Assembly (NCBI RefSeq): GCF_000341085.1 | Contig: NZ_ANBA01000015.1 | Span: 62,001-126,000 of the forward strand | Length of the DNA: 64,000 nucleotides | Direction: 5' to 3' | Source: Nocardiopsis ganjiahuensis DSM 45031 | GTDB taxonomy: Bacteria; Actinomycetota; Actinomycetes; Streptosporangiales; Streptosporangiaceae | Shown: positions 36,955 to 47,380 of the stretch, piece by piece | How the letters are laid out: every line of letters starts with the position of its first letter | Numbering within the stretch: the first letter of the stretch is position 1 | Notes under the pieces: generated by a model | Told to the model about the DNA's origin: nothing | Database searches by the model: none | The model's input: the letters and a program-made list of their open reading frames with translations, nothing else | Position numbers and translations under genes: made by a program

Positions 36955-38108
36955 ACCGCCACGAACTCTCGACCGACCACGCGGACCTGCGGGCCGCCGT
37001 GGAGGCCTTCGCCCGCACCGAGGTCGCGCCGGTGATCGGCGACTTCTACGAGCGGGGCGCGTTCCCGTACGACATCATCGCCAAGATGGGCCGGATGGGC
37101 CTGTTCGGGCTGCCGTTCCCCGAGGAGCACGGCGGTATGGGCGGCGACTACTTCGCCCTCTGCCTGGCCCTCGAGGAGCTGGCCCGGGTGGACTCCTCCG
37201 TGGCGATCACCCTCGAAGCCGGGGTGTCGCTCGGAGCCATGCCGATCTACCGCTTCGGCACCGAGGAGCAGAAGAAGACCTACCTGCCCAGGCTCACCTC
37301 CGGCGAGGCGCTCGGCGCGTTCGGCCTGACCGAACCCGGCGGCGGCTCCGACGCCGGGGCGACCAGGACCACCGCGCGCCTGGAGGACGGCGAGTGGGTG
37401 ATCAACGGGACCAAGTCGTTCATCACGAACTCGGGCACCGACATCACCGCCCTGGTCACCGTCACCGCCGTGACCGGCGAGCGCGAGGACGGGCGGCCGG
37501 AGATCTCCTCCATCCTCGTCCCCAAGGGCACCCCCGGGTTCTCCGTGGGCCAGAAGTACTCCAAGGTCGGTTGGAACGCCTCGGACACCAACGAGCTGGT
37601 CTTCGAGGACTGCCGTGTCCCCGAAGCCAACCTGGTGGGCGAGCGCGGACGCGGCTACGCCCAGTTCCTGCGCATCCTCGACGAGGGCCGCATCGCCATC
37701 GCCGCGCTCTCCGTGGGCCTGGCCCAGGGCTGCGTGGACGAGAGCGTGCGCTACGCCCACGAGCGCCAGGCCTTCGGCCACAGCATCGGCCAGTACCAGG
37801 CGATCCAGTTCAAGATCGCCGAGATGGAGGCCCGCACCTACAGCGCGCGCCTGGCCTACTACGACGCGGCCTCCCGCATGCTCGCCGGCGAGCCCTTCAA
37901 GAAGGAGGCGGCCATCGCCAAGCTCATCGCCTCCAACGCGGCGATGGACAACGCCCGCGACGCGACGCAGGTCTTCGGCGGCTACGGCTTCATGAACGAC
38001 TACCCGGTGGGCCGCTTCTACCGCGACGCCAAGATCCTCGAGATCGGCGAGGGGACGAGCGAGGTCCAGAAGATGCTCATCGCGAGGGAGCTCGGGCTGC
38101 CCGCCTGA
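36951..38108 (+). CDS. Acyl-CoA dehydrogenase (isovaleryl/short branched-chain type)
   Basis: A 385-aa flavoenzyme with all acyl-CoA dehydrogenase signatures: FGLTEPGGGSDAG for FAD/substrate, ERQAFGHSIGQYQAIQFKIA, the QVFGGYGFMNDYPVGRFYRDAK block and the terminal IGEGTSEVQ with the conserved Glu. The ATG at 36951 overlaps the carboxylase stop by four bases (ATGA). It forms the enoyl-CoA substrate used by the carboxylase. In leucine catabolism it would act on isovaleryl-CoA, giving 3-methylcrotonyl-CoA. HMG-CoA lyase, which often sits in such operons, is not present here. Confidence 0.92.
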   Translation: MNRHELSTDHADLRAAVEAFARTEVAPVIGDFYERGAFPYDIIAKMGRMGLFGLPFPEEHGGMGGDYFALCLALEELARVDSSVAITLEAGVSLGAMPIYRFGTEEQKKTYLPRLTSGEALGAFGLTEPGGGSDAGATRTTARLEDGEWVINGTKSFITNSGTDITALVTVTAVTGEREDGRPEISSILVPKGTPGFSVGQKYSKVGWNASDTNELVFEDCRVPEANLVGERGRGYAQFLRILDEGRIAIAALSVGLAQGCVDESVRYAHERQAFGHSIGQYQAIQFKIAEMEARTYSARLAYYDAASRMLAGEPFKKEAAIAKLIASNAAMDNARDATQVFGGYGFMNDYPVGRFYRDAKILEIGEGTSEVQKMLIARELGLPA

Positions 38109-38119
38109 CCCGCGGACCA

Positions 38120-38167
38120 GCGGCCCCGGATGGCGTCATCGAAACCCGATGACGTCCCCGGGGCCGC
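38120..38167 (+). terminator. Strong bidirectional terminator
   Basis: GCGGCCCCGG (38120-38129) pairs with CCGGGGCCGC (38158-38167), and the inner CGTCATCG pairs with CGATGACG. GTTCTTCT follows. It separates the carboxylase operon from the convergent NTPase gene. Confidence 0.8.
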
Positions 38168-38185
38168 GTTCTTCTGTGTGGATCC

Positions 38186-41047
38186 TCAGGACCCGAGCCC
38201 GGCCAAGCGCTCACGTACGGCGGTGACCCACCGCTCCTCGGCTCCCTCGGCCTCCGGGAGCAGTGCCAGTACCTCCTCCAGCTCCGCTCGCGCCTCACCA
38301 GGGGACAGCTCTTCCAGTTGGTGAGCAAGCGTAGCGATCCACTGCCGGGTCATCAGGGGTTCGGCGTGATCCGGACCGTACAACTCGCACTCATTCCGGT
38401 AGAGCTGACGATGAAGGCGGAGCGCTTCCTCCAGGTCACCCTGTTTCCGCGTGCTGAACGCGAGGCACCCCAGGGCGTCCAAGGTCTTCGGATCAATGGG
38501 CCCCAGCAGGTCGTCGAAGGCCGCGTGCACCAGGATCAGCTGTTCTGCGGCCTCCTCGAAGCGTTCCTGGTGTTGCAGAGCGTGGGCGAGACAGTGCCGG
38601 TCCTGAAGCACCTTGGTGTCGCACTCGTCATTCGTTTCCAGACGATCCGCCAGGACTTCTTGGAAGGTGTTCGAGGCGCTCAAATGGTGCCCGAACCGGG
38701 CCAGAAAGTCGCCGTAGTCGTGTCTGCGTCCCAGCCAACGCTCTCCGCTGGCCTCTCCTGTCTCCTCCATCAACTCCAGAAGGCGCCTGTACTGCTTGAG
38801 GCCCTCCTGTTTTTGCTGTTTCACCAGGTTGTCAGCGAGACACCTGAGCAGGTCCCCGTACTTCCTGCGGTTCTCCGCGATGGCGTGTTCGATCTCGAAC
38901 CTGGCAGCCCCCTCCCCGGAATTGAGAAGGGACGCCAGATGTGCCCTGCGGTCGTCCAGTTCCGAGAGCACAGCCCGGTAATCGTGCTCCGCTTCCTCGT
39001 AGCGTTCCAGATCATCCAGGCGGTGGGCAGTGTGGTGCCGACTCTCGATACTGAGCAGATCCCTGCTCTCAGGGAACTCCTGGATCAGCTCGTCGTAGTG
39101 CCCTTGGCTCTCTTCCTCCTTTCCCCTCCTCGACATCACGCCGATCAGAGCCCGCAGCGTGACTTCGGTGTACGAGCTCTCCACCCCGAGCACCCGCCGC
39201 CTCGCCTCAAGCACCGCCCGGAACTCGGCCTCGGTCTCCGCCGAGTCGTTGGGAAGAAGGAGCGCCAAGTCGTGACGCGCTGTGAGAGTCTCGGGATGCT
39301 CATCACCGAGGACCCGCCTCTGCGCGGCCACAACGACGGAGAGTTCCTCCAGCCGTTCCGGCCTGGGCAAAGAGGCGATCGCGTACCTGTGTCGGACGAC
39401 CAACCGTACGGCGTCTTCCTCCTGGAACTTCTCGCTTCGCCTCCGCATCAGGGCCACAAGGTCCTCGGCTCGGCCTCGCTGGGAACTGAACCAGAGGTAG
39501 GCGAAGGTGCTGACCCCCGTGTACAGAACCATGGAGAGCGTTCCGGCCGGGCGATCATCCACTCGGCGCATCGCACCGATCACGTGCGGTGCCAGCAGGC
39601 GCCACCAGCCCCAGTTCGCGGTGGACTCGGGCGGGTGTTCCGCCCCCTTGGCGAGCATCTCCACGGCGGCGCCCCACACCGCCTCGCGCTCCTTCCCATC
39701 CGACTCGCGCACCCGGTGGGCGTTCGCGTCCAGGACCAGACGGTGGGCCCGCAGGCAGGGCACCGGACCGGCGCCGGCGAAGACCTCGGGAAGCTCCACC
39801 ACCTCCACCAGTCCCAGGTCGACCAGCGCCTCCAGGGCCCGGTCCACCCGGTCCAGGTCCGGGGGTTCCGGCAGGAGCCCGTGCCGGGACGCCGCTGCCA
39901 CGTCCAGCAGGTCCACCGGGAAGGGTTCGGCGGAGAAGCACGAGAGCAGGCGCATCAGCGGCCGCGCCTCCACGGTCCCCTGTTCGTCGAGGAGGTCGAG
40001 GCTCAGTTCCCAGGTACGGCTGATCAGACGGCGGTGCAGGCGTTCGGCGGCCCCCGTGCCCGGCGGCAGGCCCTGGTCCAGCAGTTCCGGGCCGAGATCG
40101 CCCACCGCCTCCAGATACGCGTCGAAGGTGCGTGTCCGGTGGGGCCCGCCGCCCCGCTGACGCAGGAGTCCGGCGCCGCGCGCGGTCCGTGCCAGGTAGG
40201 AACCGGCCAGGCGCAGGGCCAGGGGCAGACCGCCGAGGCGTTCGGACAGGGCTCGGGCCTCCTCCTCGGTTCCGGCGTTGCCCGCGAGGTCGATGAGGAC
40301 GTCCGCACCGTCCTCGGCGGACAGTTCGCGGACCGGGTGCAGGCGGGGCCCTTCGCCCCACGCCTCGGCGGTGCCCACACGGGTGGTGACCACGGTCAGT
40401 CCGGTCTCGCCGGCCCGGACCCATCCCGTCCCGTCGCACGCCGTGTGCCCGGCCTCGGCAAGCCGGTCGGGACTGTCCGCGTTGTCGAACACCAGCAGCC
40501 AGGGCCGTTCCGCGGCCTCCAGGCGCCCCCACAGCAGATCGGTGGCGCTGGCACCGCCCGCCCAGGCCTCGGCGACCTGCTCCTCGTCGGCGCCGAGCTC
40601 CAGCGCGACCTCCCGCAGGGCGGTCACCATGCGGTCGGGCTCGTCGGCCGACACCCAGAACACCGTGTAGCCGAGCGCACGGGCGTCCCGGGCCAGCCTC
40701 AGCGCGAGTGTGGTCTTGCCGCAGCCGCCGAGTCCGTGCAGAACCTCCACCTGGCCCCCAGGCGCGGCCAGGGCCTCACCCAGCAGTGCCAGGAGCCCGT
40801 CGCGGCCGCGTACCCGGGCGGGGAGCTCGCCGAGCGGCGGGCGGATCGAGTGCAGGCCGGGGCCGGCGGGGGCCGCGTCCGAGCCCGTACCCTCACCCGC
40901 GTCCGCGTCCTTTCGCCTCCAGGCCCGTTCCGCCTGTTCGCGCACACCCGTGTGGTCCGCCCCGTCCACCGCTTCGCGGAGGCGCTCGGCCAGGCGGCGG
41001 ACCTCCTCGGGAGCGTCCGGGTCGACGGGGTCCTGGGGGCGTGCCAT
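38186..41047 (-). CDS. STAND NTPase (NB-ARC-like) with C-terminal helical repeats
   Basis: A 953-aa cytoplasmic signalling ATPase. After a charged N-terminal helix region (1-75) the NB-ARC module has Walker A GLGGCGKTT (105-113), Walker B LLVFDNAD, an Arg-containing sensor in VVTTRVG and the GLPLAL motif of the winged-helix junction. Residues 560-950 are TPR-like helical repeats (for example LAHALQHQERFEEAAEQL, QGDLEEALRLHRQLY), which usually sense ligands. There is no recognised N-terminal effector. The 3' third is less GC-rich than neighbouring genes, a hint of acquisition. It is divergent from a small ORF and a kinase. It is probably a regulator or defence/conflict protein; the trigger is unknown. 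Confidence 0.88.
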   Translation of the reverse strand: MARPQDPVDPDAPEEVRRLAERLREAVDGADHTGVREQAERAWRRKDADAGEGTGSDAAPAGPGLHSIRPPLGELPARVRGRDGLLALLGEALAAPGGQVEVLHGLGGCGKTTLALRLARDARALGYTVFWVSADEPDRMVTALREVALELGADEEQVAEAWAGGASATDLLWGRLEAAERPWLLVFDNADSPDRLAEAGHTACDGTGWVRAGETGLTVVTTRVGTAEAWGEGPRLHPVRELSAEDGADVLIDLAGNAGTEEEARALSERLGGLPLALRLAGSYLARTARGAGLLRQRGGGPHRTRTFDAYLEAVGDLGPELLDQGLPPGTGAAERLHRRLISRTWELSLDLLDEQGTVEARPLMRLLSCFSAEPFPVDLLDVAAASRHGLLPEPPDLDRVDRALEALVDLGLVEVVELPEVFAGAGPVPCLRAHRLVLDANAHRVRESDGKEREAVWGAAVEMLAKGAEHPPESTANWGWWRLLAPHVIGAMRRVDDRPAGTLSMVLYTGVSTFAYLWFSSQRGRAEDLVALMRRRSEKFQEEDAVRLVVRHRYAIASLPRPERLEELSVVVAAQRRVLGDEHPETLTARHDLALLLPNDSAETEAEFRAVLEARRRVLGVESSYTEVTLRALIGVMSRRGKEEESQGHYDELIQEFPESRDLLSIESRHHTAHRLDDLERYEEAEHDYRAVLSELDDRRAHLASLLNSGEGAARFEIEHAIAENRRKYGDLLRCLADNLVKQQKQEGLKQYRRLLELMEETGEASGERWLGRRHDYGDFLARFGHHLSASNTFQEVLADRLETNDECDTKVLQDRHCLAHALQHQERFEEAAEQLILVHAAFDDLLGPIDPKTLDALGCLAFSTRKQGDLEEALRLHRQLYRNECELYGPDHAEPLMTRQWIATLAHQLEELSPGEARAELEEVLALLPEAEGAEERWVTAVRERLAGLGS

Positions 41048-41290
41048 ACCGGTCCTGCCTTCCTGCCGCGGGGGCCTGCGGGGGTTCGAGGGCTGCGGCG
41101 ACCGGGGCGGCCGGGGCGCACCGCGCTGCCGAACTACTCGCATTGTTCAGCGAACAACCGGCTCACGGCGGGTTGTTCGCGCCTTGTTCGTGGCCGCTTC
41201 CGGACAACCGGCGCCCTCCGTATCCATGGGATCACCGCACAGACGGTGCGGTTCCGCCGAATCGGCGGAGATCCCCGGAGGTCCCACCCC

Positions 41291-41482
41291 ATGGACACGC
41301 TCGCCCAGATCGTCACCGAACACGGACCCTCGGCCCCGCTCCTCCTGCGCGGACTCCGGATCACGCCCCGGGACGCCCGGGACTCCCGGAAGGCCGAGGA
41401 GGCCCGGGATCTGCTGCGTTCCCGGCCGGTCGAGGAGAGCCGACGGCGGGGGTGCGCGACGACTCCTTCACTGCAAGGATGA
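41291..41482 (+). CDS. Possible small protein upstream of the kinase
   Basis: A 63-aa open frame with a GGAGG ribosome binding site ahead of ATG 41291 and normal GC-rich third positions for the first 50 codons. The last 12 codons look less typical. It has one predicted helix and no known motif. It is divergent from the STAND NTPase and 43 bp before the kinase start, so it may be part of the kinase transcript. The assignment rests only on codon use and the ribosome binding site. Confidence 0.4.
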   Translation: MDTLAQIVTEHGPSAPLLLRGLRITPRDARDSRKAEEARDLLRSRPVEESRRRGCATTPSLQG

Positions 41483-41525
41483 CCTCACCCCAGCACCCCC
41501 TCTAGCCACACGAGGTCCCATCGCA

Positions 41526-42485
41526 GTGCCTCCCACCACCCCCTCTCCCCGTTCCACACCCGGCGGCGACCGGACCGGGGGCGCGACCGTCACGCCCCTG
41601 GGGGCGCACGACCCTGTCCGGCTGGGGCCGCACCGGTTACTCGGGCGGCTGGGATCCGGGGGGATGGGCACCGTCTACCTGGGCCGCTCCAGGTTCGGGC
41701 GGCTGGTCGCGGTCAAGGCCGTGCACCCGGAACTGGCCGACGAACCGGAGTTCCGGGCCCGCTTCGCACGTGAGGTGGGGGCGCTGCGGCGGGTCCGCAG
41801 CCCCTTCGTGCCGCGCTTCGTCGGAGCCGATCCCCGGGCACGGTCCCCTTGGCTGGCCACCGGTTTCGTGCCCGGTCCGACCCTGCGGGAGCGGGTCGAG
41901 AGCGCCGGTCCGCTGCTCGGCGGCACCCTGACCGGGTTGGCCGCGGGGGTGGCCTCGGCTCTGGCCGACATCCACGACGCCGGGGTCGTGCACCGCGACC
42001 TCAAGCCGAGCAACGTCATCCTCTCGCCGGAAGGCCCCCGGATCCTGGACTTCGGCATCGCCCGCACGGCCGACGCCACCGCACGGACCCCGAACGGCGG
42101 CGTCCGCACGTCGGGCAGCGCCTCCCGCACCGGGGCGGGCGAGGTGATGGGCACCCCCGGCTGGATCGCCCCCGAACGCCTCCACGGCGCCCCGGCGACC
42201 ACCGCCTCGGACGTCTTCAGCTGGGGACAGCTGACCGCCTACGCCGCCACCGGCCGCAACCCCTTCGGCCGCGGGAACTCCGAGGCGGTCAACCAGCGGG
42301 TGCTGCGCGGTGAGGCCAACCTGGCAGGGCTCCCCGAGGAGCTGCTCACCCCGGTCCGCGCCGCGCTGACCGAACCGCCCGAGCACCGGCCCGGCCCGGC
42401 TCAGATCCTCCGTGTGCTGGGGAGGGGCCGGAGGATGTCGGACACCCGCGGGGTGGCCAGCCGGATCGTGCACGACGAGTGGTAG
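41526..42485 (+). CDS. Serine/threonine protein kinase, catalytic domain only
   Basis: A 319-aa Hanks-type kinase. The Gly loop GSGGMGTVYLG, catalytic Lys in LVAVKAVHPE, HRDLKPSNVI, DFGIAR and IAPERL are all present. The protein stops after the C-lobe: no transmembrane helix, PASTA or other sensor domain follows, and about 30 Pro/Ser-rich residues precede it. The GTG at 41526 is the best start, although its GAGG site is somewhat distant. It is cytoplasmic, and its location opposite the STAND NTPase suggests that the two act in one signalling pathway. Substrates are unknown. Confidence 0.85.
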   Translation: MPPTTPSPRSTPGGDRTGGATVTPLGAHDPVRLGPHRLLGRLGSGGMGTVYLGRSRFGRLVAVKAVHPELADEPEFRARFAREVGALRRVRSPFVPRFVGADPRARSPWLATGFVPGPTLRERVESAGPLLGGTLTGLAAGVASALADIHDAGVVHRDLKPSNVILSPEGPRILDFGIARTADATARTPNGGVRTSGSASRTGAGEVMGTPGWIAPERLHGAPATTASDVFSWGQLTAYAATGRNPFGRGNSEAVNQRVLRGEANLAGLPEELLTPVRAALTEPPEHRPGPAQILRVLGRGRRMSDTRGVASRIVHDEW

Positions 42486-42547
42486 GAGCACGCCGCACCG
42501 CCCCGGCCCGGCCCGTGCAGGCCCTCGCGAGGGGTGTGCCCGAGGAC

Positions 42548-43090
42548 TCAGGCGAACAGCTCCACGAGGTCGTCCATGACGACGACGAGGACACCTGCGA
42601 CCAGCCCCGTCACCACGGTGAGAAGCACACCCGCCAGTTCGGCGGGCCCCGGAGCCCCCGCAGGCAGCGCGGCCAGTCCACCGGCCACGGCGACCACACC
42701 CAGTGCGGCGTTGCGTACCACGTGGCGCGAGGAGTACACCGCCCCGGAACGTCCGAAACAGTGGCAGCGCGCCGACGACCCGCGCCGCAGGGAAGCGAGG
42801 ATCACCGCCGTGAACACGGCCAGCAGGGCGAACGATCCGCCGAAGGCGATCCACCCCGCCGGTCCGATCCCCAGGGCATAACCCGCGAAGGCCGCGACCA
42901 CGGCGGCCTCCCCCGCGGCGGCCGCCCACGCCGCTGCGCTCAGCAGCCGGGTCGGCACCAGCCCCAGGGGTTCCAGGGAGGCTGCGAAGCCGCGGTGGTC
43001 ACGGACCTTGCCGAACGCGGAGACGGCGAAGACCGTCGCGAGCAGGGCCGCAGCCCCCGGCACCAGGTAGTCCCACAGCATCGTTGTCAT
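42548..43090 (-). CDS. MauE/DoxX-like membrane protein of the peptide cluster
   Basis: A 180-aa membrane protein with four to five helices and the MauE-type start (FAVSAFGKVRDHRGFAASL). A conserved Cys-His-Cys-Phe-Gly (109-113) lies at a helix boundary. MauE proteins work with MauD-type thioredoxins, like DsbD/CcdA, to move electrons for disulfide formation outside the membrane. The ATG at 43090 overlaps the S26 protease stop (ATGA); ATG 43081 has the better ribosome binding site distance and is an alternative. It is the last gene of the operon that follows the cysteine-rich peptide, so it probably supports oxidation of that peptide. Confidence 0.85.
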   Translation of the reverse strand: MTTMLWDYLVPGAAALLATVFAVSAFGKVRDHRGFAASLEPLGLVPTRLLSAAAWAAAAGEAAVVAAFAGYALGIGPAGWIAFGGSFALLAVFTAVILASLRRGSSARCHCFGRSGAVYSSRHVVRNAALGVVAVAGGLAALPAGAPGPAELAGVLLTVVTGLVAGVLVVVMDDLVELFA

Positions 43091-43554
43091 CCCTCCAGGC
43101 GGCGCAGCACGGTTCCGACGACCCGGCCGACCGGTACCAGACCGAACCTGCGCGAGTCGGTGCTGTGGTCGGAGTTGTCGCCCAGGACCGCCACGAACCC
43201 ATCCGGTACGGTCCTGGGCCCGCTCCCCCGGCCACCGGGGACGCCCTCGGGCACCGGGTCACCGGCCACCGCGGCCACTCGCTTGACGAGGTAGTTGGGG
43301 CGGCGCCGGTCGCGTTCGTCACGGAGCACGGGGGTCTCCGGATCGCGCAGGACCACGAGTTGGCGGGGGACGATCACCGTGCGCCGGTTGGCCCGTTCGG
43401 CGAGCATCCGGTCCCCCTGGCGCAGCGCGGGCAGCATGCTCACACCGGAGACCTCCGTGACGAAGACCCTGCGCCGGACCCACAGGAGCACGGCCAGGAC
43501 CGCGGTCACCGCCACGGCGGCCGACGATCCCAGTACGACGAGCGCGGTCAGCAC
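43087..43554 (-). CDS. S26 (signal peptidase I-like) protease of the peptide cluster
   Basis: A 155-aa membrane-anchored serine protease. One N-terminal transmembrane helix (about 5-25) is followed by box B with the nucleophile Ser39 in VSGVSMLP, box D with the general base Lys91 in NYLVKRVAAVAGDPV, and box E GDNSDHSTDSRRFG. It is shorter than housekeeping LepB enzymes. Its stop overlaps MauE and its start overlaps the ABC transporter by seven bases, so it is dedicated to this operon. The neighbouring exporter lacks a C39 peptidase domain, so this enzyme is the obvious candidate for removing the precursor leader outside the cell. Confidence 0.88.
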   Translation of the reverse strand: MLTALVVLGSSAAVAVTAVLAVLLWVRRRVFVTEVSGVSMLPALRQGDRMLAERANRRTVIVPRQLVVLRDPETPVLRDERDRRRPNYLVKRVAAVAGDPVPEGVPGGRGSGPRTVPDGFVAVLGDNSDHSTDSRRFGLVPVGRVVGTVLRRLEG

Positions 43555-45386
43555 GGTGCCCCCTCGTCCTGGCGGTACCCCTGCGCCTGGATGGAGAACA
43601 GCCGGGCGTACACCCCGTCCGCGGCCATCAGCTCCCCGTGCGTTCCCGACTCGGTGACCGTCCCCTCGTCGAGCACCACGATCCGGTCCGCGTCGCGCAG
43701 AGCACCGAGCCGGTGGGAGACCAGCAGGCTGGTGCGGCCCCGGCGCCGTTCCCTGAGCCGTGTGTGCAACTCGTGCTCCGCCTCCGCGTCCAGCCCGGCG
43801 CTGGGCTCGTCGAGGATGAGCAGGTCACGTTCCTCCCGGAGCAGGGCGCGGGCGATCGCGACCCGCTGCTGCTGGCCGCCGGAGAGGTCGACGCCCTGTG
43901 CGTTCTCCTCCCCCTGGAAGAAGATCCGGGTGATGAGCGTGTCGTAGCCGCTTGGGAGCGCGGCGATCGCATCGTGGACACCCGCGCGGTGAGCGGCGGT
44001 CTCGATGGCCGCGCGGTCCTCGAAACGGCTCAGGTCGCCCAGCCCGATGTTCTCGGCGGCGGTCATGTCATAGGTCATGAAGTCCTGGAACACCGCGCCG
44101 ATCCGCTCGCGCAGGGCTTCGGGGGCCACCTGGCGGATATCGGTCCCGTCCCAGGTGATGGTGCCGTGATCGGGGTCGTAGAACCGGCACAGCAGCTTGG
44201 CCAGGGTGCTCTTGCCCGACCCGTTGAGCCCGACCAGGCCCAGCGCCGTCCCCGCGGGGATGTCCAGGTCGACCCCCTTCAGGACCCAGGGGTGGTCGGG
44301 GGTGTAGCGGAACCACACGTCGCGCAGCTCGATACGGCCGGTCAGCGGGGCGACCCGTGCCGTTCCGGTGGGCAGGTCCGGTTCGATCGCGACGATGGAG
44401 CGGTAGTGCGTGAACAGCAGCAGTCGCTGGTGGGCCTGGGCCAGGAGTGAGATCATCCCGGCCATCCCCTGCTGCACCGCGCCGACCGCGGCGATGTACA
44501 GGGCGACGTCGCCGACGGCCCCCCGGCCCTGGCCCGCCTGGAAGATCACCCACACGAGCCCCCCGCCGGAGATCAGTGCGGCCAGCAGCCCGGCGGCGAC
44601 CTGGACGAGCATGTCGCGCCGGTCCATGAGTCGGGTCTCCGTGTTGGCCGTGCGGCGCTCGGCCAGCATGCGTCGGCGGAGCATGTCGCCGAGGCCGAAG
44701 AGGCGGATCTCCTTCGCCGCCTCCGCGCTCGACATCAGGTCGCGGTAGAAGAGCTCCCTGCGCTCGACCGGGCCGAGCTGCCAGACCATGGCCGCCCGTC
44801 GGCGCGACAGCTCCAGCTGTCCCCACAGCGGTGGCAGGGTTCCGAGCAGGACGACCACGGCCAGCAGCGGGTGGATCACCACGAGGGAGGTCACGAAGCC
44901 GAGGACCGTCACGAGTCCGCCCAGCAGACCGAGAACGGCCTGGAGGACCTGGGCCGGGGTCTGGCCGCCGCTGTCGGCCGCCAACCGCAGGCGGTCGAGG
45001 AAGGCCGGGTTCTCGAACCGGCCGAGCCCGGAGAGCCGGTTGACCGACGTGAACAGGTGGTCGTCCGCGTGCAGGCCGACCCTGCGGGCCAACTCGTCCT
45101 CCGCGTACGTCTGCACCGCGGTGGTCACGGCGGTCAGGAGTCCGAGGGTGGCCAGCAGGACGGCTACCACCAGCACTGTCGCCATCACGGCGTCGACGGC
45201 CAGGTCGTTGAGGACCGTGCGCATGAGCCAGGCGGTGGCGACCGGTACCGCACCCGCGGTGACGGCCAGGAGGGCCAGCCCGAGCGCCCACCAGCGGCCC
45301 GCCTGCCACACGAGCCGGACCGCGGGAAGCAGGCCGGCGACGACGTGGCGACCGCCGAGTCGGGGGGTGTTTTCCGTCGTGTCCAT
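43548..45386 (-). CDS. ABC exporter (fused TMD-NBD) of the peptide cluster
   Basis: A 612-aa half-transporter with six transmembrane helices in residues 20-320 and one NBD: Walker A GLNGSGKST, signature LSGGQQQR, Walker B LLILDEPSAGLD, H-loop LLVSHRLG. There is no N-terminal C39 peptidase domain. The architecture resembles the LanT/McjD-type exporters of small peptides and would act as a homodimer. ATG 45386 lies 3 bp after the thioredoxin-like stop. Its context between a secreted thioredoxin, a signal-peptidase-like protease and a cysteine-rich precursor makes peptide export the likely role. Confidence 0.92.
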   Translation of the reverse strand: MDTTENTPRLGGRHVVAGLLPAVRLVWQAGRWWALGLALLAVTAGAVPVATAWLMRTVLNDLAVDAVMATVLVVAVLLATLGLLTAVTTAVQTYAEDELARRVGLHADDHLFTSVNRLSGLGRFENPAFLDRLRLAADSGGQTPAQVLQAVLGLLGGLVTVLGFVTSLVVIHPLLAVVVLLGTLPPLWGQLELSRRRAAMVWQLGPVERRELFYRDLMSSAEAAKEIRLFGLGDMLRRRMLAERRTANTETRLMDRRDMLVQVAAGLLAALISGGGLVWVIFQAGQGRGAVGDVALYIAAVGAVQQGMAGMISLLAQAHQRLLLFTHYRSIVAIEPDLPTGTARVAPLTGRIELRDVWFRYTPDHPWVLKGVDLDIPAGTALGLVGLNGSGKSTLAKLLCRFYDPDHGTITWDGTDIRQVAPEALRERIGAVFQDFMTYDMTAAENIGLGDLSRFEDRAAIETAAHRAGVHDAIAALPSGYDTLITRIFFQGEENAQGVDLSGGQQQRVAIARALLREERDLLILDEPSAGLDAEAEHELHTRLRERRRGRTSLLVSHRLGALRDADRIVVLDEGTVTESGTHGELMAADGVYARLFSIQAQGYRQDEGAPC

Positions 45387-45389
45387 GGC

Positions 45390-45944
45390 TCAGCGGACCG
45401 CCGTACCGAGCTCGGCTCCACCGGTCTCGGGCACGAAGACGCTGGTCGCCGTCGCGACGCCGTTCACGAGCGTGACGAAGGCCGGGGTCCCCTGGATGTC
45501 GAGGAGCCGGGGGATCTCACCGCCCCAGGGCTCGACCACCACCGGCACCGCCGGCTCCAGGAGTTCGACCATCTCCGCCTCCGCCCCGCCCTCCTCGATC
45601 ACCACGGCGAGCACACGCGCGTCCGGATGCCGTGCCGTGTGGTCGAGCAGGAGGGGGAGGCGTTCCCGGCACGGTGAGCAGTCCGGGGAGAGGACCGCCA
45701 TCAGGAGGGGCTCCGCGGTCTCCTCGAACGACAGTTCCACGCCCCGGGTGGACCGGGCCCGGAACGCCCCGACCCTGGTGCCGACGGACACCGCGGGGGC
45801 GGAGACGTCGTCGCCGACCGCCTTCGGCCTGTTCGCCAGGAGCTCGGTGTGCTGCCGCAGCCTGCGGACCACCCCCACCGCCAACAGGAGGTTCAGCAGG
45901 CCGAGTGCTCCTGTCAGGACTATCGCGACGACCATGAAAAACAC
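45390..45944 (-). CDS. Membrane-anchored MauD/TlpA-like thioredoxin of the peptide cluster
   Basis: A 184-aa protein with an N-terminal membrane anchor (residues 2-27), a polar linker and a thioredoxin-fold domain facing outside. The redox centre Cys-Ser-Pro-Cys is at 89-92 (LSPDCSPCRER) and the cis-Pro loop is GTPAFV. The GTG at 45944 is preferred: it follows GAGAGG at six bases, whereas TTG 45965 upstream lacks a good site. It matches MauD, the partner of MauE, and MauE lies in the same operon. Together they would form or correct the disulfide bonds of the exported six-cysteine peptide. Confidence 0.85.
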   Translation of the reverse strand: MFFMVVAIVLTGALGLLNLLLAVGVVRRLRQHTELLANRPKAVGDDVSAPAVSVGTRVGAFRARSTRGVELSFEETAEPLLMAVLSPDCSPCRERLPLLLDHTARHPDARVLAVVIEEGGAEAEMVELLEPAVPVVVEPWGGEIPRLLDIQGTPAFVTLVNGVATATSVFVPETGGAELGTAVR

Positions 45945-45973
45945 GACGTACCTCTCGTTCCACAACGAATTCG

Positions 45974-46003
45974 GTGGGGGCGGAGCACGTGCTCCGCCCC
46001 CAC
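45974..46003 (-). terminator. Perfect 30-bp palindrome between precursor gene and biosynthetic operon
   Basis: GTGGGGGCGGAGCAC (45974-45988) is followed directly by its exact complement (45989-46003). It lies 28 bp past the precursor stop and 30 bp before the thioredoxin start. Without a T-tract it probably acts as an attenuator or 3' stabiliser that keeps precursor mRNA in excess. Confidence 0.75.
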
Positions 46004-46030
46004 GTCCTCACCTCGGATCAGGTGCTCTGA

Positions 46031-46234
46031 CTAGCAGGTGCCGCAGGACAGTTCGCGGATCTGAGTTCCGCTGCTGCAGTTCCGCGACTGGTACTGGACC
46101 TTGTTGGTCCAGAAGAGTCCGCACCTGTTGCAGTGCGAGTTTTTCCACCCGGTGCAGGAAGCGGCTTCGACCCGCACCTGCGGGACAACGGACTGGATCA
46201 TTCGGTCGCTCAGCGACGTGATCAGACTGATCAT
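46031..46234 (-). CDS. Precursor of a secreted six-cysteine peptide (RiPP/bacteriocin-like)
   Basis: A 67-aa peptide. The leader (about residues 1-24, ISLITSLSDRMIQSVVPQV then RVEA) is amphipathic and not a Sec signal. The core holds cysteines at 27, 35, 38, 53, 64 and 67, with two CxxC pairs (CNRC, CGTC), four aromatic residues and a net positive charge. A Val22-x-Ala24 site fits cleavage by an S26 protease, giving a mature peptide of about 43 aa. The ATG at 46234 follows AAGGGA at seven bases. Genes for export, proteolysis and disulfide formation follow on the same strand, and a SARP gene is divergent. No family is recognised. Confidence 0.8.
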   Translation of the reverse strand: MISLITSLSDRMIQSVVPQVRVEAASCTGWKNSHCNRCGLFWTNKVQYQSRNCSSGTQIRELSCGTC

Positions 46235-46555
46235 GACGGGTCCCTTCTCGACGTGTGCCGTGTTCGGCGATCAGCAGACAACCACCGTCCGGTACACGGA
46301 GGGTTCACAGCTGATTCATCAGACCGAAAAACTTCCACCAGCCTCCCGAACAGCCAACACGCCATCGAAACTCGATACCAAGGCGGCCGGGACCGGCCAA
46401 TCACGGTTCCATATCTCGCGCGCAGGTTAGGATACGCTCACCGGACGATGAATTTGATCATCGCCTTTCCATCGGATGTACGAGAAGAATAGAAACACCC
46501 ATCGAAAGTCCTCATGATCAGCAGTCATCTGAAATAAGGGCGGACAGAGATATTC
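46235..46555. promoter_or_regulatory. Divergent promoter region between SARP and precursor genes
   Basis: A 321-bp region with clearly lower GC than its surroundings. It contains three copies of CCATCGRA: 46362 and 46499 (both CCATCGAAA) and 46469 (CCATCGGA). SARP proteins bind direct heptamer repeats near -35 boxes, so these are candidate sites, but their spacing (107 and 30 bp) is not the standard 11 or 22 bp. No gene is seen. Confidence 0.45.
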
Positions 46556-47380
46556 ATGGACTTCAGAATGCTCGGACCACTCGAAGTCACGGACGACTCA
46601 GGGGAGCCTGTTCCCGTCAACCGCAAAAAACACCGCCAACTCCTGGCCACCCTCCTGGTACGGGCGAACAGCGTGGTGCCCTTCGGCCGGATGGTTGACA
46701 ACATCTGGGGCGACGTCCCCCCGCGCTCGGCACGCGGGAACGTCAAGACGTACGTCTCCCAGCTGCGTCAGCGGATCGACCGGATCGAGACCGGAGGCGA
46801 CGGCTACCGCATCCGGGTCGGGGAGCACGAACTGGACTCCTGTGTCTTCGACGCCTTGCTGCGACGGGGCCTGCGACAGTTCACGGAGGGGCACCTGACC
46901 GAGGCGGCACAGATCCTCGAGGAGGCACTCGACCTGTGGCGCGGTGACGTCCTCCAGGGCACGTCCCTGTACAACGACCTGGCGCTCGCCCACACGCACC
47001 TGGACGAGCAGCGCTTCACCTGTTTCAAACACCTGATGGACGTACGGCTGGCCCAGGGCCGGCACTCGGAGGTCCTCGCCCGCCTGCGCCCGGTGATGGG
47101 CTCCCACCTGCTGCACGAACAGCTGTGCGGACTGCAGATGATGGCCCTGTACCGCGACGGTCGCTGCGCCGAGGCACTCGTCTCCTACGAGGACATGCGC
47201 GCACGCCTGGCCGGGGAGCTGGGTGTGGATCCCAGCCCGGAACTGCAGCAACTGCACCTGCGGATCCTGGCCCACGACCCGAAGCTGTCCGGTCCCTCTG
47301 TCCGGCTCCCCGTGCCGCAGGAGAGCCCGGGCCTCCCGTCACGGATACCGCTGACCCATCTGTCAGGTCAGTACACCTAG
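46556..47380 (+). CDS. SARP family transcriptional activator
   Basis: A 274-aa regulator with an OmpR-like winged helix (residues 1-92; RKKHRQLLATLLVRANSVV through NVKTYVSQLRQRID) and a bacterial transcriptional activation domain of helical repeats (95-245). There is no NB-ARC extension, so it is a short SARP like ActII-ORF4. The start is ATG 46556; the ribosome binding site is weak. SARPs switch on neighbouring specialised-metabolite clusters, and this one is divergent from the cysteine-rich peptide gene. It is very probably the pathway-specific activator. No TTA codon is obvious in the frame. Confidence 0.9.
   Translation: MDFRMLGPLEVTDDSGEPVPVNRKKHRQLLATLLVRANSVVPFGRMVDNIWGDVPPRSARGNVKTYVSQLRQRIDRIETGGDGYRIRVGEHELDSCVFDALLRRGLRQFTEGHLTEAAQILEEALDLWRGDVLQGTSLYNDLALAHTHLDEQRFTCFKHLMDVRLAQGRHSEVLARLRPVMGSHLLHEQLCGLQMMALYRDGRCAEALVSYEDMRARLAGELGVDPSPELQQLHLRILAHDPKLSGPSVRLPVPQESPGLPSRIPLTHLSGQYT

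Follow-up and report, generated by a model that had tools for sequence, protein, structure and literature searches.

A stretch of 64,000 nucleotides from Nocardiopsis ganjiahuensis DSM 45031 (contig NZ_ANBA01000015.1, positions 62,001 to 126,000; this whole stretch is referred to here as the window) contains a compact block of six genes, in which a short open reading frame (ORF) for a cysteine-rich precursor is followed on the minus strand, in that order, by genes for a TlpA-type thioredoxin, an ABC exporter, an S26 protease and a MauE-family membrane protein, and is accompanied by a SARP-type activator (Table 1). An earlier note on this DNA had described these six genes and their spacing, and its description was borne out: the coordinates are correct, Pfam supports the naming of the MauE, S26, ABC and SARP proteins and finds no C39 peptidase domain in the exporter, and the genes are separated by 3 bp (TlpA and ABC) or overlap by 7 bp (ABC and S26) and 4 bp (S26 and MauE), with 65 bp between the precursor stop codon and the start of the TlpA gene. 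The protease carries the motifs SGVSMLP, LVKRVAAVAGD and GDN..STDSR.

Table 1. Genes and precursor regions of the peptide cluster, in coordinates of the window.
Feature	Position	Strand	Basis and remarks
Cysteine-rich precursor, 67 aa	46031-46234	-	ORF; Cys spacing C-x7-C-x2-C-x14-C-x10-C-x2-C
Precursor leader MISLITSLSDRMIQSVVPQVRVEA, 24 aa, amphipathic, ends VEA (AxA-like)	46163..46234	-	Family leader alignment; predicted cleavage site
Core ASCTGWKNSHCNRCGLFWTNKVQYQSRNCSSGTQIRELSCGTC, 43 aa, six Cys, plus stop codon	46031..46162	-	Cys invariant in five Nocardiopsis
TlpA/MauD-type thioredoxin, membrane-anchored, CxxC = CSPC	45390-45965	-	Family profile and AlphaFold model
ABC exporter, membrane and ATPase domains fused, without C39 peptidase domain	43548-45386	-	Pfam ABC_tran, 1e-31
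S26 signal-peptidase-type protease, N-terminal membrane segment	43087-43554	-	Pfam S26, 4e-19
MauE/DoxX-family redox membrane protein, CxCFG motif = CHCFG	42548-43090	-	Pfam MauE, 3e-20
SARP-type transcriptional activator, divergent from operon	46556-47380	+	Pfam BTAD/SARP, 6e-37

The thioredoxin, described in the same note as MauD/TlpA-like and as having a CxxC motif, was identified through its relatives and its predicted structure. The window protein itself gives no meaningful Pfam match; 9 of 12 members of its family match AhpC-TSA/Redoxin, the family profile matches ResA and DsbE chains, and an AlphaFold model (predicted local distance difference test score, pLDDT, of 86) displays one long N-terminal helix joined to a thioredoxin fold that lies closest to DsbE and ResA. 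The methylamine dehydrogenase light chain (PF02975) has no match in the window genome, and control genomes are likewise silent. The window precursor was searched against Pfam and NCBIfam together with eight diverse relatives, and nothing significant was returned; a search of the PDB with the profile of the precursor family found no match.

The complete block, from SARP gene through precursor, TlpA, ABC and S26 to MauE, is found in four other Nocardiopsis genomes, with the SARP gene at the same position in all five, ABC exporter orthologs that are approximately 84% identical, and precursors that are 72-79% identical to that of the window and retain all six cysteines. The chromosomal site is also constant, lying between an acyl-CoA dehydrogenase-like gene on one side and a threonyl-tRNA synthetase-like gene on the other (both named from sequence only). 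In many genomes without the cluster these flanks are approximately 2-4 kb apart (for example in G007 and G015, which are 97% identical over the right flank), whereas in carriers they are separated by 11.2 kb in the window and by 6.7-14 kb elsewhere; the cluster is therefore accessory. Its presence is patchy, with the TlpA protein encoded in 12 of 40 Nocardiopsis genomes. Beside the cluster, the segment at 38108-42548 appears to encode a 985-aa NB-ARC/TPR-like protein and a Ser/Thr kinase-like protein; the four cluster-bearing relatives lack it, one of them retaining approximately 60 bp at that point, and it therefore looks like an insertion specific to this strain. The window genome also contains another cluster of this type (L124; contig C7, 35500-49500), where MauE, TlpA, ABC and S26 genes accompany a precursor with an eight-cysteine core, CGYQYRCVSSTCTRGVYRQRRECCLQGGDARCSSWVTIACDC.

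A profile constructed from six precursors and searched over 395 genomes of the class revealed such leaders in other genera, both inside the family and outside it, often in tandem copies that carry differing cores, and most of these precursors adjoin the same five genes. Their leaders follow the consensus M-x3-I-x2-L-x-D-R-L-L-x3-V-P-x3-A-x-A-x2-C. The association of leader and module was also examined without circularity, by choosing loci with the TlpA profile alone: among 34 newly fetched strong loci, a leader-only model found the leader next to the module in 28, the leader-only or full precursor model found a precursor in 32, and TlpA, MauE, ABC and S26 were all present in 29, while the models found no precursor in six weak TlpA control loci. 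In the whole set of loci, leader matches numbered 55 in 351 kb inside modules, as against 9 in 664 kb outside them, and all nine of the latter could plausibly be family members, either orphan or nearby. In a replicate of 39 further loci, mostly from another genus and outside the building of the models, precursors were present in 35. The earlier note had held its proposal open to refutation if the small ORF proved unconserved beside these genes, or its cysteines variable among homologues; conservation was instead found both within the genus and far outside it.

The TlpA protein also occurs in 43 of 247 genomes of a genus that is probably Streptomyces (coded g71), and named members located on plasmids include those of S. 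clavuligerus, S. nigrescens and S. atratus. The Streptomyces clavuligerus megaplasmid encodes two family precursors, WP_003953191.1 and WP_009999284.1, both annotated as hypothetical (L136, 4997-5489). Several individual loci depart from the usual arrangement. A SARP gene in L053 (7908-8832) has beside it four precursors in tandem, whose cores differ, and no module; the modules of that genome lie on another contig (L097 and L098), which suggests that one module may serve precursors located elsewhere. An orphan precursor with the family leader lies beside a P450-like gene in L013 (2799-2996), where the 12 kb fetched contain no module, and in L122 and L123 two different TlpA genes flank the precursor and the MauE gene. 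Weak precursor matches in L063 and L064 were judged to be false.

These observations indicate that the cluster very probably directs the synthesis, disulfide folding, export and trimming of a short peptide rich in cysteine. A probability of roughly 0.85 is assigned to the view that these genes produce a secreted peptide matured by disulfides alone, through the mechanism proposed here. In the inferred order of events, the SARP activator would turn on the operon; the precursor, which would not be a substrate of the Sec pathway, would be bound through its amphipathic leader (with its D-R centre, proline and AxA-type end) by the dedicated ABC exporter and carried across the membrane; the membrane-anchored S26 protease would cleave at the outer face after VEA, freeing a core of approximately 43 residues; and the membrane pair of MauE and TlpA would oxidise or isomerise the six cysteines to yield three disulfides. 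Since the same machinery accompanies hypervariable cores in many actinobacteria, it appears to be a general device for the production of stable folded peptides.

The presumed activity of those peptides is most likely antagonistic (that is, bacteriocin-like). A role as a signal, a developmental factor or a surface peptide, made by the same biosynthetic route, is a possible though less probable alternative: control by a SARP protein and the lack of any recurrent dedicated immunity gene (none is evident as conserved in a clustering of the genes around approximately 60 modules) would suit it, whereas the extreme variability of the cores, the tandem paralogs, the occurrence of several clusters in one genome and the patchy distribution among Nocardiopsis fit antagonism better.

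It is improbable, in turn, that the peptide is exported by Sec and cleaved by an ordinary signal peptidase, with the ABC protein serving only in self-immunity and the S26 protein as a spare signal peptidase. The AxA motif, which precedes the first cysteine in 70 of 74 leaders (and corresponds to VEA in the window), does resemble the end of a Sec signal, and S26 proteases are of the signal peptidase family. The leaders are nonetheless unlike Sec signals, because they are only mildly hydrophobic and harbor a nearly invariant Asp-Arg pair in the middle, often with basic residues in the c-region: their maximum Kyte-Doolittle value over 12 residues is 0.99 in the window and 0.77 at the family median, compared to 2.2 for a neighbouring secreted protein of Sec type from S. 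clavuligerus. They are also strongly conserved, and the dedicated exporter and S26 protease are almost always present. With an exporter that lacks its own peptidase and a membrane-bound S26 protease encoded in one operon, the simplest reading is export by the ABC protein followed by S26 cleavage.

The cysteines of the core are even in number in all 74 precursors (55 distinct cores after similar ones were thinned), with four cysteines in 1, six in 48, eight in 23 and ten in 2, and in 38 of 39 further precursors; as a control, 502 similarly sized ORFs were taken from the same DNA, and an even number was found in 68% of those with at least four cysteines and in 40% of those with at least five. 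Because the precursors are related, these counts cannot be treated as independent observations. The precursor of L052 has an additional cysteine in its leader and still an even number in its core. Even counts are predicted by full pairing into disulfides, and not by a metal site or by thioethers between cysteine and Ser/Thr. The earlier note had proposed a search for relatives by the exact cysteine pattern of the window precursor; the six cysteines are indeed invariant in five Nocardiopsis, but their spacing is not a feature of the family, in which 48 six-cysteine cores display 39 patterns. The redox motifs (CxCFG in MauE and CxxC in TlpA) are kept in the members examined, and gene clustering around the approximately 60 modules indicated that only the five module families, the SARP gene and, at 11 loci, a generic response regulator notably recur. 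The absence of any other recurrent modifying enzyme in that set supports maturation by cleavage and disulfides alone, as the earlier note had argued, together with the AxA/VxA leader end, the dedicated S26 protease, the MauE and TlpA pair and the even counts.

Some other modification of the cysteines (a thioether, an azoline or a metal centre, as in a different kind of ribosomally synthesised and post-translationally modified peptide (RiPP) or a small metal protein) is very improbable, for even though short cysteine-rich proteins can bind metals and a zinc-ribbon match was obtained at a non-significant E of 0.75, the membrane redox pair is conserved, lanthionine, YcaO, radical SAM or other modifying enzymes do not recur at the approximately 60 loci, and the variety of spacings offers no fixed metal site. 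A zinc ribbon was likewise rejected, and identification as a lanthipeptide, an azole peptide or a sactipeptide was set aside because the cluster genes include no lanthionine synthetase, YcaO or radical SAM protein.

Several points weigh against the proposed scheme of export, cleavage and disulfide formation. First, one of the 113 precursors (L154) has seven core cysteines. Second, a sister group with MauE, TlpA and ABC genes (L132, 7718(-), and L134, 7931(-)) encodes candidate precursors with an eight-cysteine core (CPPDCRYEESCAGG...CC...CGAWTQIGSC) whose leaders lack both the DR pair and AxA, and no S26 gene was detected there, a pattern that fits, without proving, a pairing of S26 with AxA. 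Third, the AlphaFold model of the precursor has no confident fold (pLDDT 57), so that disulfide pairing is unreadable from it. Finally, in clusters for class I lasso peptides, where a DoxX protein and a thioredoxin have been proposed to form disulfides (PMC7168211, PMC9266682), knock-outs of these genes reduced yield or shifted the location of the product and did not abolish the disulfides (PMC9266682); the MauE and TlpA pair may therefore be an oxidase, an isomerase, a quality-control system or a yield factor, and may not be strictly required.

Many actinobacteria have this gene set, with peptides that vary wildly, which suggests a large and as yet unnamed family of bacterial peptides with disulfide bonds. 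If so, the family would be a rich source of secreted miniproteins stabilised by disulfides (with 4-10 cysteines and 39 six-cysteine frameworks) that go unrecognised by current family libraries, and its compact module could be used to make other disulfide-rich peptides. What MauE and MauD-like proteins contribute to the formation of disulfides in peptides could also be tested directly in a system of five genes with simple substrates; some of these occur in S. clavuligerus, whose precursors offer a convenient laboratory test case. The window product is described here as a RiPP-like secreted peptide; the balance tips somewhat towards a separate, undescribed class, conotoxin-like in its combination of one conserved export leader with hypervariable, even-cysteine, disulfide-only cores, and widespread in actinobacteria, in which a dedicated extracytoplasmic module (ABC, S26, MauE and TlpA) folds and releases many cores.

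Several known systems share parts of this arrangement. Class II (double-glycine) bacteriocins such as pediocin are unmodified, disulfide-bonded and exported by an ABC protein, with a thioredoxin-like helper; they employ a GG leader and an ABC protein with a C39 peptidase, whereas the window leader ends in VEA, the exporter lacks that domain and S26 is separate, and this identity was rejected. Production of glycocins such as sublancin also requires thiol-disulfide oxidoreductases (as cited in PMC9266682); the glycosyltransferase that defines them is absent here, and a glycocin was likewise rejected as an identity. The TMcins resemble the window cluster in leader removal, in disulfide formation by a cluster-encoded thiol oxidoreductase and in secretion, and differ in a transmembrane helix within the mature peptide, a site-2-type metalloprotease and a DsbA-family enzyme, the genes being unrelated (PMC13252029); the window core is hydrophilic, and S26 stands in place of the DUF3267 protease. 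Class I lasso peptides (siamycin, humidimycin and sviceucin) are likewise actinobacterial and are accompanied by a DoxX membrane protein and a CxxC thioredoxin (PMC7168211, PMC9266682). The window also encodes a MauE/DoxX-type protein and a CxxC thioredoxin, likened to such pairs (HumE and HumF) by gene type. The lasso peptides differ in their B and C proteins and in a short core closed by a macrolactam (21 aa in humidimycin); no lasso cyclase (Asn_synthase) or B1/B2 protein is found among the cluster genes or recurs at the approximately 60 loci.

In the open literature searched, which leaves most subscription journals uncovered, only the decRiPPter, lasso peptide and TMcin work was relevant to MauE, MauD, DoxX and S26 in a RiPP context, and neither a description of the unifying leader, the even-cysteine rule and the taxonomic range nor a later characterisation of the decRiPPter MauE/MauD families was found. 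The claim of the earlier note that this is not a described RiPP class is only partly right, because decRiPPter had in 2020 already listed, according to its main text, three candidate RiPP families from Streptomyces with mauE, one of them also with mauD, whose precursors have at least 8 cysteines (PMC7794033). What they share with the window cluster is MauE, MauD in one of the three, and a cysteine-rich precursor, under a filter that demands a transporter, a peptidase and a regulator, and the window cluster fits that entire gene set; the window precursor has six cysteines, however, and its relatives from 4 to 10, and the main text of that study mentions neither a shared leader nor any S26/AxA logic, and lists no members beyond Streptomyces (PMC7794033). 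On the basis of that main-text description, the decRiPPter MauE/MauD families likely belong to the same family as the cluster described here.
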